From NCBI GenBank assembly GCA_016931955.1, contig JAFGDV010000010.1, positions 1-24,772 on the forward strand: DNA of 24,772 nt, written 5' to 3'. The notes under the pieces are model-generated. The model was not told where the DNA came from and ran no database searches. It saw only the letters and a list, made by a program, of their open reading frames with translations. The DNA is from Candidatus Altarchaeota archaeon. Its GTDB lineage: Archaea > Altiarchaeota > Altiarchaeia > IMC4 > QMZM01. Below are positions 7,522-22,509 of the stretch, piece after piece; positions within the stretch are counted from its first letter, which is position 1; each line of letters starts with the position of its first letter. The position numbers and the translations under genes were made by a program.

Positions 7522-7928
7522 TAGACGTCTTCTGGCTCGAATACCTTCTTTCCAGTAACCTCGAATCTTCTACCCTTTATCTTCCTGTAGAAACACGACC
7601 TGTATCCTGTATGGCATGCCCCGCCCTTCTGTTCCACCTTGAAGAGGAGCGCGTCTCCGTCGCAGTCTACGTAGAGTTCCTTGACCTCTTGTACGTGACC
7701 TGAACTTTCTCCCTTCATCCACAGCGTTTTCCTGCTTGTAGAGTAGTAGTGCATCTTCCCTGTCTCAAGGGTCTTTTTTATTGCATCCATGTTGGCGTAA
7801 GCCACCATCAAGACCTCATCTGTTTTATGGTCCTGTGCGATAGCCAATACAAGATCGGGATTACCGTCAACCTCCCTGAACTTCAGCGACTTAGATAGGA
7901 ATTCAGCGTCGGCATTTATACTCTCCAT
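7518..7928 (-). CDS. hisI: Phosphoribosyl-AMP cyclohydrolase
   Basis: The 136-residue protein matches the stand-alone HisI family. It opens the adenine ring of phosphoribosyl-AMP in the third step of histidine biosynthesis. Diagnostic stretches are [39 protein letters not shown] and the metal-binding Cys residues in VDCDGD and [14 protein letters not shown]. Length is normal for the archaeal enzyme without a HisE fusion. No other his gene is in the window, so it is a single scattered gene. Its stop overlaps the end of the ATPase gene by four bases (TAG and the reverse TAA interleave). Its start is 30 bases from the start of the divergent aIF1A gene. Confidence 0.96.
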
Positions 7929-11326: not shown

Positions 11327-11521
11327 ATGGAAGGAAAAGTTAAATGGTTTAATCGGAATAAAGGGTATGGTTTTGTCCAAGGCGACGACGGCGAAGACTA
11401 CTTCGTACACCACTCAGCAATCGCTGAAGGTGTTGTTTTGAACGAAAACGACCAGGTCTCCTTTGAAGTGACTGAAACCGAACGCGGAAAACAGGCCAAA
11501 GATGTTAGACTGAAGGAGTAA
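11327..11521 (+). CDS. cspA: CspA-family cold-shock protein
   Basis: The 64-residue protein is one complete cold-shock domain: MEGKVKWFNRNKGYGFVQGD includes the RNP1-type K-G-Y-G-F-V, followed by DYFVHHSAI (RNP2-type), a beta-barrel middle part and a C-terminal KDVRLKE. It would bind single-stranded RNA or DNA and loosen RNA structure. CspA proteins are bacterial in distribution and only patchy in archaea, so horizontal origin is likely at some point. The gene has its own promoter and is followed 23 bases after the stop by a bacterial-looking hairpin plus T-run, then by the hairpin-rich region beside the tRNA gene. Confidence 0.95.
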   Translation: MEGKVKWFNRNKGYGFVQGDDGEDYFVHHSAIAEGVVLNENDQVSFEVTETERGKQAKDVRLKE

Positions 11522-11543
11522 TCCTCGAAAAAAGAAACCAATA

Positions 11544-11575
11544 GAATTCGCCCAAAGGCGAATTCCAGTTTTTTT
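11544..11575 (+). terminator. Hairpin plus T-run terminator after the cold-shock gene
   Basis: A perfect 9-bp stem (GAATTCGCC at 11544-11552 with GGCGAATTC at 11557-11565, loop CAAA) is followed by CAG and seven T. This is the form of an intrinsic terminator. Archaeal polymerase mainly needs the T-run, so the stem may instead stabilise the mRNA end. Confidence 0.75.
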
Positions 11576-11606
11576 CTAAAAAGAAAGGTGGGCCCGGTGG
11601 GATTCG
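11569..11606 (-). repeat. Truncated copy of the tRNA 3' end and flank (distal copy)
   Basis: The 17 bases at 11590-11606 are identical to 11918-11934 of the tRNA gene: the acceptor stem's 3' strand, the 3' strand of the T stem and part of the T loop. The A/T-rich flank TTTTTTTCTAAAAAGAAA on the side beyond the tRNA 3' end is also kept in near-identical form. Beyond the T loop the similarity ends, so this is a truncated copy, in the same orientation as the tRNA. It may be an attachment-site remnant. Confidence 0.75.
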
Positions 11607-11613
11607 TACATAA

Positions 11614-11911
11614 GGGTGGGAACTTCGTTCCCTCCCTCGCACAATACACGTAAGTGTATTGGCGCGCAGAGCGCTGCGCGCTCTCGCGTATCAACCCAAC
11701 CCTCCTCGTTGAATCTACGAAGCAGATTCCCTTTTTTCTTTCGCTGAGCGAGACCTTCGGTCTCGACTCAGACAAGACCATAGTTCTTGCTGATAGCACT
11801 TTTCTTTTTCTAAAAGAAAAGGGCTATGGGCCCGGTGAGATCACAGAGCACCTTTTTCTTTAAAAAAGAAAAACGTGCACGAAAAAGAAATCAGTTTTTC
11901 TAAAAGAAAAG
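11614..11911. repeat. Array of short inverted repeats (hairpins) without a credible gene
   Basis: Perfect or near-perfect small stems follow each other closely. They are GGGAAC/GTTCCC with loop TTC (11618-11632, extendable to 11614-11636); CAATACAC/GTGTATTG (11642-11661); GCGCGCAG/CTGCGCGC (11662-11681); GAATCT/AGATTC (11711-11729); CTGAG-CGAGACC/GGTCTCG-CTCAG with loop TTC and one bulge (11744-11771); CTTTTCTTTT/AAAAGAAAAG with loop TCT (11799-11821, extended by TAGC/GCTA); and TTTTTCTTT/AAAGAAAAA framed by GCAC/GTGC (11848-11878). Each stem has a different sequence, so this is not a CRISPR array or a simple tandem repeat. The open frames across it are short and resemble nothing I know. It lies between the cold-shock gene and the tRNA 3' end. 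Confidence 0.75.
11805..11837 (-). repeat. Truncated copy of the tRNA 3' end and flank (proximal copy)
   Basis: These 33 bases are identical to 11895-11927, which spans the tRNA 3' end and its downstream flank. On the tRNA-sense strand the next bases here read CTCAC where the present tRNA has CCCAC. The copy is in the same orientation as the tRNA, 90 bases from the real end and 238 bases from the distal copy. Confidence 0.8.
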
Positions 11912-11916
11912 GGCTA

Positions 11917-11991
11917 TGGGCCCGGTGGGATTCGGACTCACGACCACTCGATTATGAGTCGAGCGCTCTAACCAGGCTGAGCTACGGGCCC
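11917..11991 (-). tRNA. tRNA with CAT anticodon (elongator Met, or Ile2)
   Basis: The 75-base gene folds as a standard cloverleaf: acceptor stem GGGCCCG/CGGGCCC, D arm GCTC/GAGC, anticodon stem CTCGA/TCGAG with loop CTCATAA, variable loop TGGTC, T arm and discriminator A. The anticodon CAT is at 11954-11956 on the minus strand. CCA is not encoded. A CAT tRNA of this type is either elongator Met or the Ile2 tRNA whose wobble C is modified; the sequence alone does not let me decide. The initiator type is less likely. The T arm is unusual: stem GTGAG against CCCAC leaves an A-C mismatch, and the loop reads TCCGAAT instead of TTCGAAT. A TATA-like box lies 35-45 bases upstream (about 12026-12037). 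Confidence 0.93.
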
Positions 11992-16510: not shown

Positions 16511-17593
16511 ATGCTTAGAAAAACAAATAAGGATATGCGGATGAAAGAATCAAGCCGAGGTATGCTTATAAAGGCCGGTGTCTTGTTTTTTGTGTTCATA
16601 GTAGTCTACTCTGCTGACGCGCAACTGCCCAGCAGGAGGTACCTCGAAGTCGGCATCTCTGGTAACTGCACAAATCAGACTGTGACAATACGCACTACCG
16701 ACAGAAACGATAACAGCTTGTATGGGGTCGACATAGAGGTCTACTTTAACCATTATCTAATCCATGACCTTAGGACCGACTCTGAGGGGATTGCGTCTTT
16801 TACCCCCGCCTTTGTGGGCGAATACGAGTTACAGCTAACGAAAGCTGGATACCAGGGCAGGGAAGTAGACCTCCTGGTGGGGTACTGTGGTTCATGTTCG
16901 GATGGGATACATAATCAGGGAGAACAGGGGATAGATTGCGGGGGACCATGCCAGCCCTGCACGACCACCTCGACCACCACCACCACGACCACGACGACCA
17001 CGACCACGACGACCACCACCACGACCACGACTACGACGACGACCACTACTACAACCACTACTACGACGACTACCTCAACAACCTCGACCTTGGCTGAAGA
17101 GTCGAAGGGGTTTGATATGGGACTCTTTGGCATAATTCTTGCAGCCGTTGTTGTCTTGTTCGTTCTTTATAGTAGGTTCAGGGGTGGGAAGGGAACTGTG
17201 GAAGCTGAGGAGGAACCCAAGAGTGCGCTTTATAGGGGCTCAATGGGGGCTGCGTCAGCCGAAGAAAGGTATAGGGGCTTCAAGGAAAAGGCTGAGGAAC
17301 CGCAGGGGGATAAGCTGGAGGAAGGCTTCGATGAGATCAAGAAGCTGAATGAGGAATTGGAGACCCTCAAAGAGGGGTTAAAGGAGAACCACCGGTATGC
17401 TGGATTTATGGAAAGCAAGGGCAGTGGTTCTCTGAAGGATGTCTCCCAGAGCATCAAGGGGGGGCAAGCAGTTGGGAGGAAGAGTGTGTTTGATATCAAC
17501 TTGGCGGGCATCACGGATTTAGCGGGCAAGATGAGGTTCCTTGATGTGCCTGGACAGAGTGGGGGTAAAAAGAAGGGGGAGAAGAAGGGTTGA
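16511..17593 (+). CDS. Single-TM surface protein with Cys motif, poly-Thr stalk and coiled-coil cytoplasmic tail
   Basis: This 360-residue protein has a signal peptide ending near YSADAQ. An Ig-like/CNA-B-type domain of about 95 residues follows (VTIRTTDRNDNSLYGVDIEV, DSEGIASFTPAFVGEYELQL). One C-x-DG-x2-NQGE-x2-IDCGGPC-x2-C motif precedes a nearly pure Thr stalk of about 40 residues (16961-17092). A TM (FGIILAAVVVLFVLY) and a charged tail of about 150 residues with a coiled-coil part (EIKKLNEELETLKEGLKE) complete it. Starts at 16511, 16535 and 16541 are all possible; a TATATAT at about 16505-16511 and a more usual n-region favour 16535 or 16541. The long tail suggests contact with a cytosolic partner. 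It lies 9 bases after the protease gene, so the two are probably co-transcribed. Confidence 0.85.
   Translation: MLRKTNKDMRMKESSRGMLIKAGVLFFVFIVVYSADAQLPSRRYLEVGISGNCTNQTVTIRTTDRNDNSLYGVDIEVYFNHYLIHDLRTDSEGIASFTPAFVGEYELQLTKAGYQGREVDLLVGYCGSCSDGIHNQGEQGIDCGGPCQPCTTTSTTTTTTTTTTTTTTTTTTTTTTTTTTTTTTTTTTSTTSTLAEESKGFDMGLFGIILAAVVVLFVLYSRFRGGKGTVEAEEEPKSALYRGSMGAASAEERYRGFKEKAEEPQGDKLEEGFDEIKKLNEELETLKEGLKENHRYAGFMESKGSGSLKDVSQSIKGGQAVGRKSVFDINLAGITDLAGKMRFLDVPGQSGGKKKGEKKG
16961..17092 (+). repeat. Thr-codon tract encoding the extracellular stalk
   Basis: About 44 codons are almost all ACN, with a few TCN. ACC, ACG, ACT and ACA are mixed rather than one trinucleotide repeating. The mix argues that the poly-Thr protein sequence, probably O-glycosylated, is under selection, although slippage can still change its length in frame. 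Confidence 0.85.
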
Positions 17594-21541: not shown

Positions 21542-21572
21542 GAAAAAAAGAGGAAAGGGGTTTATTCCCTTT
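21542..21572 (-). terminator. Hairpin/T-run terminator overlapping the stop codon of the CBM9-like gene
   Basis: On the minus strand a stem AAAGGG/CCCTTT (21567-21572 with 21554-21559) has a loop that contains the TAA stop. It is followed by CCTCTTTTTTTCT. The same design, with the stop in the hairpin loop, recurs at the two PEP-CTERM-like genes upstream. Confidence 0.6.
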
Positions 21573-22509
21573 TCTTTGCCATCAGGTATGCGAATCCTGA
21601 GCTTGTTAGTATCACTATTAATGCCACACCTGCTGAGCTGAATTCCGGTACCGTTGGAATAGTCGTCGTAGTCGTCGGTAGAGTTGTAGTCGTCGTAGTC
21701 GTCGGTAGAGTTGTAGTCGTCGTAGTCGTCGGTAGAGTTGTAGTCGTCGTAGTCGTGGTGGTGGTCGTCGTGGTCGTGGTGGTGGTCGTCGTGGTCGTGG
21801 TGGTGGTCGTCGTGGTCGTTGGTGGTGTGTCCCAGTCGAATGTTGTGTATATTACGTCGTTTCCGCAGGTTTGTGTTACGTGTATGTCGCTCATGGTTGC
21901 TTGTGGTGGTAGTCCTAGTGCGGATTTAGGTATTTTGGCTTCGATTATGTAATTTTTTAGGCAGTGTGAGCTGCTCCCTAGGGTGCATCCTGCTGGGTAG
22001 TCGTTTATCGTTGCTTGTATGTATACTAAGTTGGTTGCGTATCCCATGCTTGTTCCGCAACTTAGTATGCGGCTTGGTTCTCCCTTTACGATCGACCAGT
22101 CGGGATTGTAGCATACTTGTCCCATGACGCCTGTTAGTCTGATTCCGTATTCGTAGCCGTCTTCCCCGGTTAGTGGGTTGTTGTCGACGTCTAGTGCCAG
22201 GTCTCCTGGTTGGTAGGTACCACTTCCTGTTGGCGGGAAGGATGTCACGATTGCGAAGTATGCGTATCCTACTTCGTCGTCGCAGTACATTGCTTCTATG
22301 TCGTAGAGTTCTCCTCCGGCTGGCATGGCACTGCTGCTTACTGGGTAGTCTTCTAGTGTGTAGTCGCAGGTTGGGCTGCTGGGTGTCCAGTCTGTGAAGG
22401 GTGTTACGCCCCAGTCAGCTAGGTTTCCATCTATTGTGTAGGGTGGTCCTGCTGTGGCTGTTGTCAGTGTTATGAGAAGCATCAAAAAAACCATGATTTG
22501 TTTTTTCAT
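21562..22509 (-). CDS. Secreted protein with CBM9/DOMON-like domain, Thr stalk and PEF-type C-terminal sorting signal
   Basis: The 315-residue protein has a signal peptide (MKKQIMVFLMLLITLTTATA). A sandwich domain of about 205 residues begins YTIDGNLADWGVTPFTDW, the usual opening of CBM9/DOMON-like sugar-binding domains, and includes GDLALDVDNNPLTG and YIIEAKIPKSALG. Several Cys residues could form disulphides. A long Thr stalk with three LPTTTTTTT units follows. The tail is VPEFSSAG, a hydrophobic segment and AKKRE, which fits an archaeal PEF-CTERM-like sorting signal handled by an archaeosortase (inference; no such enzyme is in the window). A TATA-like TATAAAAAG at about 22564-22572 lies some 55 bases before the ATG. 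Confidence 0.87.
   Translation of the reverse strand: MKKQIMVFLMLLITLTTATAGPPYTIDGNLADWGVTPFTDWTPSSPTCDYTLEDYPVSSSAMPAGGELYDIEAMYCDDEVGYAYFAIVTSFPPTGSGTYQPGDLALDVDNNPLTGEDGYEYGIRLTGVMGQVCYNPDWSIVKGEPSRILSCGTSMGYATNLVYIQATINDYPAGCTLGSSSHCLKNYIIEAKIPKSALGLPPQATMSDIHVTQTCGNDVIYTTFDWDTPPTTTTTTTTTTTTTTTTTTTTTTTTTTTTLPTTTTTTTLPTTTTTTTLPTTTTTIPTVPEFSSAGVALIVILTSSGFAYLMAKKRE
21661..21741 (-). repeat. 27-bp tandem repeat, three perfect copies
   Basis: The unit is repeated at 21661-21687, 21688-21714 and 21715-21741 and encodes LPTTTTTTT per copy in the stalk of the CBM9-like protein. Copies are identical at the DNA level, indicating recent expansion. The unit is a multiple of three, so copy changes keep frame. 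Confidence 0.9.
21752..21814 (-). repeat. 21-bp tandem repeat, three perfect copies, in the Thr stalk
   Basis: A different unit of 21 bases (seven Thr codons) repeats exactly at 21752-21772, 21773-21793 and 21794-21814, next to the 27-bp repeat. Both arrays lengthen the same extracellular stalk. Confidence 0.9.

Follow-up and report, generated by a model that had tools for sequence, protein, structure and literature searches.

The row of hairpins between a cold-shock gene and a tRNA-Met gene in a DPANN archaeon is not one gene or one RNA but a pile-up of short, non-coding, apparently mobile DNA repeats, which these small archaea carry in and next to their tRNA genes. The core of the repeat is a hairpin with a mirror-image tail that could fold into a triple helix, and it may be one source of the tRNA introns of these archaea. 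We analyzed a window of 24,772 nucleotides, positions 1 to 24,772 of contig JAFGDV010000010.1 (Candidatus Altarchaeota archaeon, GCA_016931955.1; order Altiarchaeales), in which a sequence-only reading had described a dense chain of distinct small hairpins at 11544-11911. We refer to the genome of the window as G000 (1.55 Mb, 46 contigs), to the congeneric genome as G001, and to further genomes and individual loci by G and L numbers, respectively.

To determine if the hairpins are real, we first carried out the comparison with dinucleotide-shuffled controls that had been proposed for both strands. The folding energy of 11544-11911 was -143.5 kcal/mol on the plus strand against -93.7 +/- 6.0 for 100 shuffles (z -8.4), and -151.2 against -101.3 +/- 5.6 on the minus strand (z -8.9); no shuffle did as well. 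The observation of the sequence-only reading was therefore correct, and the individual stems it named are present, among them 11544-11552/11557-11565, 11613-11623/11627-11637, 11642-11649/11654-11661, 11662-11669/11674-11681, 11749-11755/11759-11765, 11793-11808/11812-11827 and 11848-11861/11865-11878. As it had claimed, no credible gene overlaps the chain: the two ORFs over the stretch (11398-11799 on the minus strand and 11654-11863 on the plus strand) only read through hairpins, and 11535-11916 has no coding capacity. No Rfam family matched at its gathering score except the flanking tRNA. Two corrections are needed. The feature runs from about 11535 up to the tRNA end at 11917, and the key landmarks had been missed, namely two partial copies of the tRNA-Met 3' end inside the chain and the mirror symmetry of 11862-11890.

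The chain lies between a cold-shock protein gene, csp (11327-11521, plus strand, 64 aa), and a convergent, intact tRNA-Met (CAT) without an intron (11917-11991, minus strand; ARAGORN, and Rfam tRNA at 65.7 bits), the gene into whose 3' end the elements appear to have gone. Starting from the tRNA, 11895-11931 (minus strand) is the first copy of a 37-nt direct repeat, consisting of the tRNA 3' end ATCCCACCGGGCCCA followed by TAGCCCTTTTCTTTTAGAAAAA. The core element at 11848-11890 (plus strand, antisense to the tRNA) is a mirror-tailed hairpin, GCACC-TTTTTCTTT-AAAAAAGAAAAA-CG-TGC-A-CG-AAAAAGAAA, and with the degenerate sense half at 11894-11916 it makes an inverted dimer (element 1). The second copy of the 37-nt repeat (97% identical) is at 11805-11841 (minus strand), in which 11827-11841 is the partial tRNA-Met 3' end ATCTCACCGGGCCCA. 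The hairpin ATAGCCCTTTTCTTTTAGAAAAAGAAAAGTGCTAT at 11793-11827 (minus strand) is the left-end type of element 2, and the same hairpin type follows Ile, Val, Gly, Phe, Gln and other tRNAs. Next is a double-hairpin module at 11744-11791 (minus strand; 11744-11771 and 11773-11791), which in other copies (Phe, Pro and Gly) appears as a nested insertion; a copy at 24278-24388 of contig C7 is 93% identical over 11722-11830. A further hairpin, GAATCTACGAAGCAGATTC, is found at 11711-11729. The 3' module of element 2 (11613-11697, minus strand) contains hairpins at 11662-11684, 11642-11661 and 11613-11637, and a 92% copy elsewhere in the genome (contig C10, 893-956) keeps the stems through paired changes. 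The third copy of the tRNA-Met 3' end, CGAATCCCACCGGGCCCA, is at 11589-11606 (minus strand; 18 nt exact, tRNA nt 58-75). Finally, the hairpin GAATTCGCC-CAAA-GGCGAATTC at 11544-11565, with a flanking T tract, is a dispersed module next to csp. The order on the minus strand is thus tRNA, element 1, partial end, element 2, partial end. Elsewhere in the window, very long threonine runs were seen at 16915-17133 and 21700-21900 in two predicted surface proteins (16511-17593, plus strand, and 21562-22509, minus strand).

Next, we searched G000 with the chain and found 76 partial matches. We then inspected every tRNA gene found by the Rfam model (17 genes) and found the same hairpin modules beside 16 of them, 10 with an exact duplicate of at least 11 nt of one end of that very tRNA on the far side of the hairpins. 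The 3' duplicates run from the T-loop (about nt 57-65) to nt 73-75, and the 5' duplicates run from nt 1 or thereabouts to the D-loop. The 16 of 17 count and the assignments of nested modules were made by eye, and the total copy number of the strict core in G000 was not counted. The one tRNA without hairpin modules, tRNA-Cys (contig C38, 51049-52180; L063, L195), is followed by a tyrosine recombinase gene, perhaps a separate integrated element. Upstream of a second tRNA-Met (L057, 1501-1575), the sequence encodes what looks by eye like a LAGLIDADG homing endonuclease. tRNA-Glu has the same partial 5' copy plus hairpin (GGCCTATCATGCAACCCCTTT..AAAGGTGTTGCATCCCCAAAG) upstream in G000 (contig C46, L056) and in G015 (L093; Candidatus Altiarchaeales archaeon IMC4), which belong to two different families of the order; this is either an old retained insertion or a repeated target. 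A second dispersed module family around the motif GTCGCTTAG (GTGTGGC...GTCGCTTAGCCACAC) was found at tRNA 5' ends, in a tRNA-Thr intron and in three tandem copies after tRNA-Met of G001 (L010 1165-1250, L011 3440-3510, L035 1578-1900 and the L096 intron). In G015, several intergenic copies of TAGCCCTTTTCTTTTCCAAAAGAAAAGTGCTATCATCCCAAAAGAAAAG are followed by a TATA-like ATACTTTATAAGACAATAAAAATG just before a gene start (L069, L070, L071, L073), a hairpin plus promoter-like unit spread as one piece.

Across the copies, one hairpin of about 43-60 nt keeps a strict grammar, XYZ-CC-(pyrimidine tract)-loop-(purine tract)-CG-Z'Y'X'-Z-CG-(purine tract in mirror order), and is found singly or as inverted dimers with other hairpin modules nested between. 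To determine how widespread it is, we scanned 84,980 GTDB genomes with an exact pattern covering only the right arm and tail, AAAGAAAAACGNNNNCGAAAAAGAAA. This resulted in 73 stretches, 71 of them archaeal and labelled Altiarchaeota, Micrarchaeota, Aenigmatarchaeota, Diapherotrites, Woese-, Pace- and Nanoarchaeota, with some labelled merely archaeon, Euryarchaeota or Thermoplasmatales. The other two, from Pontibacter, look like chance matches; two IMG/VR hits likewise lie in purine-rich sequence without the left arm and look like coding chance matches, giving no support for viral spread. Although the left arm was not part of the pattern, 68 of 75 places have it, 66 of 67 preceded by CC. Compensatory change in relatives had been named beforehand as a test of the stems, and it is found in the core module: the outer triplet pairs in 194 of 201 positions against 101 +/- 7 when partners are permuted (0 of 5000), with many different triplets (CAG, CAA, AGG, TAA, GCA, GAA, TGG and others). 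The base before the tail equals Z in 62 of 67 cases against 34 +/- 4.

The purine tract after CGNNNNCG is the mirror image of the right arm, not a direct or inverted repeat. Beyond the nine bases fixed by the pattern, 143 of 155 positions agree with the element's own arm against 90 +/- 6 for permuted tails (0 of 20,000), and 40 of 42 arm G are met by G. In a second set of hairpins, picked without any tail condition, 463 of 492 positions agree (94%) against 377 +/- 7 (z about 12), and arm G is met by tail G in 79 of 91 cases against 42 +/- 3. As the sequences are related, these permutation values are not strict probabilities, but the two sets show many tract variants (TTTTTCTTTCTCTT, TTTCTTTTT, TTTTTTCTTTTCTTC and others). 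A pyrimidine block, its purine complement and a mirror purine block on one strand is the layout of an intrastrand triplex of the purine motif (antiparallel third strand). Triplex formation is inferred here and was not measured. The purine motif is reported not to form in RNA (PMC4666352), which points to single-stranded DNA, or to the pyrimidine motif on the complementary RNA.

To look for signs of mobility, we compared flanking direct repeats at elements and control places, and found them at 19 of 84 elements against 14 of 730 controls; 65 elements show none. The cleanest cases are L155 (JANLGZ010000098), a perfect 63-nt repeat directly abutting a 50-nt core, and L084 in G009, a 54-nt repeat starting at the start codon of a prephenate-dehydrogenase-like gene. 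G000 carries its own insertion in the same gene at a different point, and there G001 has the uninterrupted junction, with the upstream gene stop followed by the start and neither the ~70-nt element nor the 32-nt duplication. These two Altiarchaeal genomes (L021/L242 and L084/L245) thus carry core elements at different points of the 5' end of this gene, whereas the other family genomes read do not. A DNA search of relatives for an unfilled L155 site found only diverged flanks and many further cores. An early idea that duplications always stop at mature RNA ends failed, as the repeat in L040 runs about 15 nt past the tRNA and that in L155 is not in a tRNA. Tandem amplification of [tRNA part + hairpin] units occurs in G013 (Altiarchaeales WOR_SM1_SCG; six units, L065) and G015 (two units, L095). 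One alternative, which we consider unlikely, is triplex-induced instability without any mobility machinery, in which the sequence stalls replication and template switching creates local duplications and spreads hairpin pieces, as proposed for bacterial TMECO motifs. In its favor are the variable duplication length, the lack of a common enzyme, the tandem amplification in G013 and G015, and the linkage of TMECO loci with rearrangement (PMC4666352). However, it does not explain how near-identical cores reach many unrelated sites with clean flanking repeats, as in L155, L084 and the G000/G001 site.

We next asked if the chain is conserved at its own locus. G001 keeps the order p154 - tRNA-Met - csp (55.6% and 67% identity), but its 442-nt interval shows no exact match of 8 nt or more to the tRNA and folds little better than shuffled sequence (z -1.7 against -7.2 for the window interval), apart from one GGTTGATAAGGG...CCTTAT module near csp. 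The interpretation offered by the sequence-only reading was partly supported. Of its three ideas, the folded end of a former mobile element is closest, as the chain is built from dispersed repeat modules with target-type duplications. A conserved non-coding RNA of this locus is not supported. A stack of terminators between convergent genes fits this locus but not the family as a whole, which also lies inside tRNA introns, in 16S rRNA and at gene starts. More broadly, it is improbable, though possible, that the hairpins are functional RNA (tRNA-transcript terminators, trailers or processing signals kept by selection). Element strand agrees with tRNA sense in about 26 of 35 flank cases (a count made by hand), the chain lies between convergent genes and the stems keep pairing through compensatory changes; the RNA-seq evidence suggested for this question was not examined. 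Against this reading, beyond the lack of conservation in the congener and the varied locations, both orientations occur in dimers and the mirror tail is not needed for termination.

To characterize where the elements sit, we examined their flanks. tRNA sequence lies within about 180 nt of 35 of 74 pattern elements against 19 of 284 random places in the same contigs. Covariance model searches with Rfam found complete tRNA genes interrupted by the core in L148, L152, L153, L161 and L170, and a 5S rRNA just upstream in L168. In L134, from an Aenigmatarchaeota genome, a core hairpin lies inside a 16S rRNA gene (around 7757-7782) and is probably an rRNA intron. Relatives of the L155 genome reach 35, 21 and 16 matches, and there the cores lie mostly in anticodon-loop introns, singly (sense) or as head-to-head dimers, though the intron borders and isotypes from ARAGORN are approximate. 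T-loop insertions without duplication (GGGTTCAAAT^...^AATCCCGG in L151 and L176) fall at the same place as the 3'-duplication type. The location in tRNA introns, the sense bias of monomers, and duplications that end near RNA ends in tRNA genes could suggest RNA-mediated spread, in which excised tRNA-intron RNA re-enters RNAs and is copied back by a reverse transcriptase. We consider this very unlikely, as no RVT_1 family (PF00078) reverse transcriptase was found in any of six element-bearing genomes (G000, G001, G009, G013, G015 and G041), and one insertion is at a protein gene start; for the same lack of an enzyme, a SINE-like retroelement is not supported.

We then searched for other enzymes that could move the repeat, and none could be tied to it. 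Cas1 (PF01867) was found in G013 but not in G000, G001, G009, G015 or G041, and the flanking duplications of 14 to 63 nt do not fit the fixed 14-15 bp target duplication of casposons, arguing against a casposon-derived MITE or CRISPR-like integration. The Y1 transposase of REP/IS200-type elements was absent from G000, G009, G013, G041 and G047, and present in G015, G045 and G048. Tyrosine recombinases were found in five of six genomes and so stay open as candidates. Under this alternative, which we regard as doubtful, the repeats are gene-less cassettes moved by a tyrosine recombinase that uses tRNA genes as attachment sites, and the tRNA end copies are att cores. The tRNA 3'-end copies of 14-19 nt resemble att cores, direct repeats of the tRNA 3' end are present at the distal ends (11827-11841 and 11589-11606), and in L051 the tRNA-Gly copy carries the neighbouring tRNA-Gln bases. 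However, no such recombinase was detected in G009 (83% complete), the window element does not encode an integrase, duplications also occur at tRNA 5' ends and protein gene starts and reach 63 nt, and elements of about 50-100 bp are too short for a normal circular intermediate.

Taken together, we favor with moderate confidence a short non-autonomous mobile repeat that has accreted at the 3' end of tRNA-Met. The analysis itself demonstrates the dispersed copies, the mirror tail, the stem co-variation, the association with tRNA genes, the flanking direct repeats, one clear uninterrupted site and one orthologous locus without the chain in the same genus; the mechanism is our inference. In this view, the single strand folds into a hairpin whose purine tail turns back (through CGZ'-NN-ZCG) into the major groove as a third strand, this structure is what is copied or moved, and it enters a target opened by two widely spaced nicks, with fill-in yielding a duplication of 14-63 nt. 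We could not choose between such nicks and replication template switching, and the wide variation in duplication length would be unusual for a dedicated transposase. Insertions in essential tRNA genes would survive when the duplication rebuilds an intact gene (intact tRNA + element + partial tRNA 3' end, or partial 5' end + element + intact tRNA), or when the insert is spliced out as an archaeal intron; in the window, two such insertions would have happened in succession. Some observations fit less well: the blocks in the window are composites with only one clear mirror-tailed core, copy 2 differs from the tRNA by one base, and monomers in tRNA introns all appear in sense orientation, which a purely DNA-level element does not explain. 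A bolder possibility, which we hold only tentatively, is that DPANN archaea carry a family of minimal mobile elements, about 50 nt of triplex-forming DNA without genes, that keeps inserting into tRNA and rRNA genes and becomes their introns, a direct source of archaeal tRNA introns and of partial tRNA copies, moved by an enzyme not yet recognised.

How archaeal tRNA genes acquire introns and become broken into partial copies is an open question, and a ~50-nt dispersed repeat found both as tRNA intron content and as tRNA-end insertion with target duplication gives a concrete, countable candidate source, traceable across several DPANN phyla. It is also a practical warning: in the one-contig genome G015, the standard tRNA covariance model finds only 22 tRNA genes, and we infer that some are probably hidden by such inserts. 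The case we found in the literature, the Caldiarchaeum tRNA-Thr insertion element (PMC3293823), is also an insertion in a tRNA gene with a scattered tRNA 5' fragment and intron gain, but it is a 1.87-kb element encoding a predicted recombinase, whereas the elements here are about 50-230 nt and non-coding. As in archaeal bulge-helix-bulge introns, the core lies in tRNA introns at or near the anticodon loop in several DPANN genomes, though the window copy is not an intron, its tRNA-Met being uninterrupted, and the core also lies outside introns. REP/BIME/MITE repeats and mitochondrial repetitive hairpin elements (PMC3733652, PMC2800124) are likewise short, palindromic, dispersed non-coding repeats in modular arrays. 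These repeats have no mirror purine tail and no systematic tRNA-gene location. The recurrent G-rich triplex/quadruplex repeats of Methanomicrobiaceae (PMC8044849) are archaeal dispersed repeats able to form a hairpin with an antiparallel purine third strand, but they are G-rich and intergenic and belong to a different clade, and the text of that paper does not mention tRNA or mobility. We found no description of the present repeat in the papers searched, which did not include most subscription papers or any preprint server. The closest structural parallel is the BoxC/PIT/TMECO intrastrand-triplex repeats of bacteria (Hoyne and Maher; Holder et al. 2015, PMC4666352), which share the block order pyrimidine - loop - purine - short loop - mirror purine on one strand and are short, dispersed, conserved and sometimes in inverted pairs. 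TMECO is G/C-rich (CCCTCNCCC..., consensus CCCTCNCCCN3-6GGGNGAGGGN3GGGNGAGGG), reported as always intergenic in E. coli and not associated with mobile elements. The repeat described here has A/T-rich tracts of the TTTTTCTTT / AAAGAAAAA types with a fixed C.C mismatch and a CGZ'NNZCG turn, lies inside and beside tRNA genes of DPANN archaea and in 16S rRNA, and carries flanking target duplications; it would be a triplex-type repeat with signs of mobility, which the bacterial ones lack.
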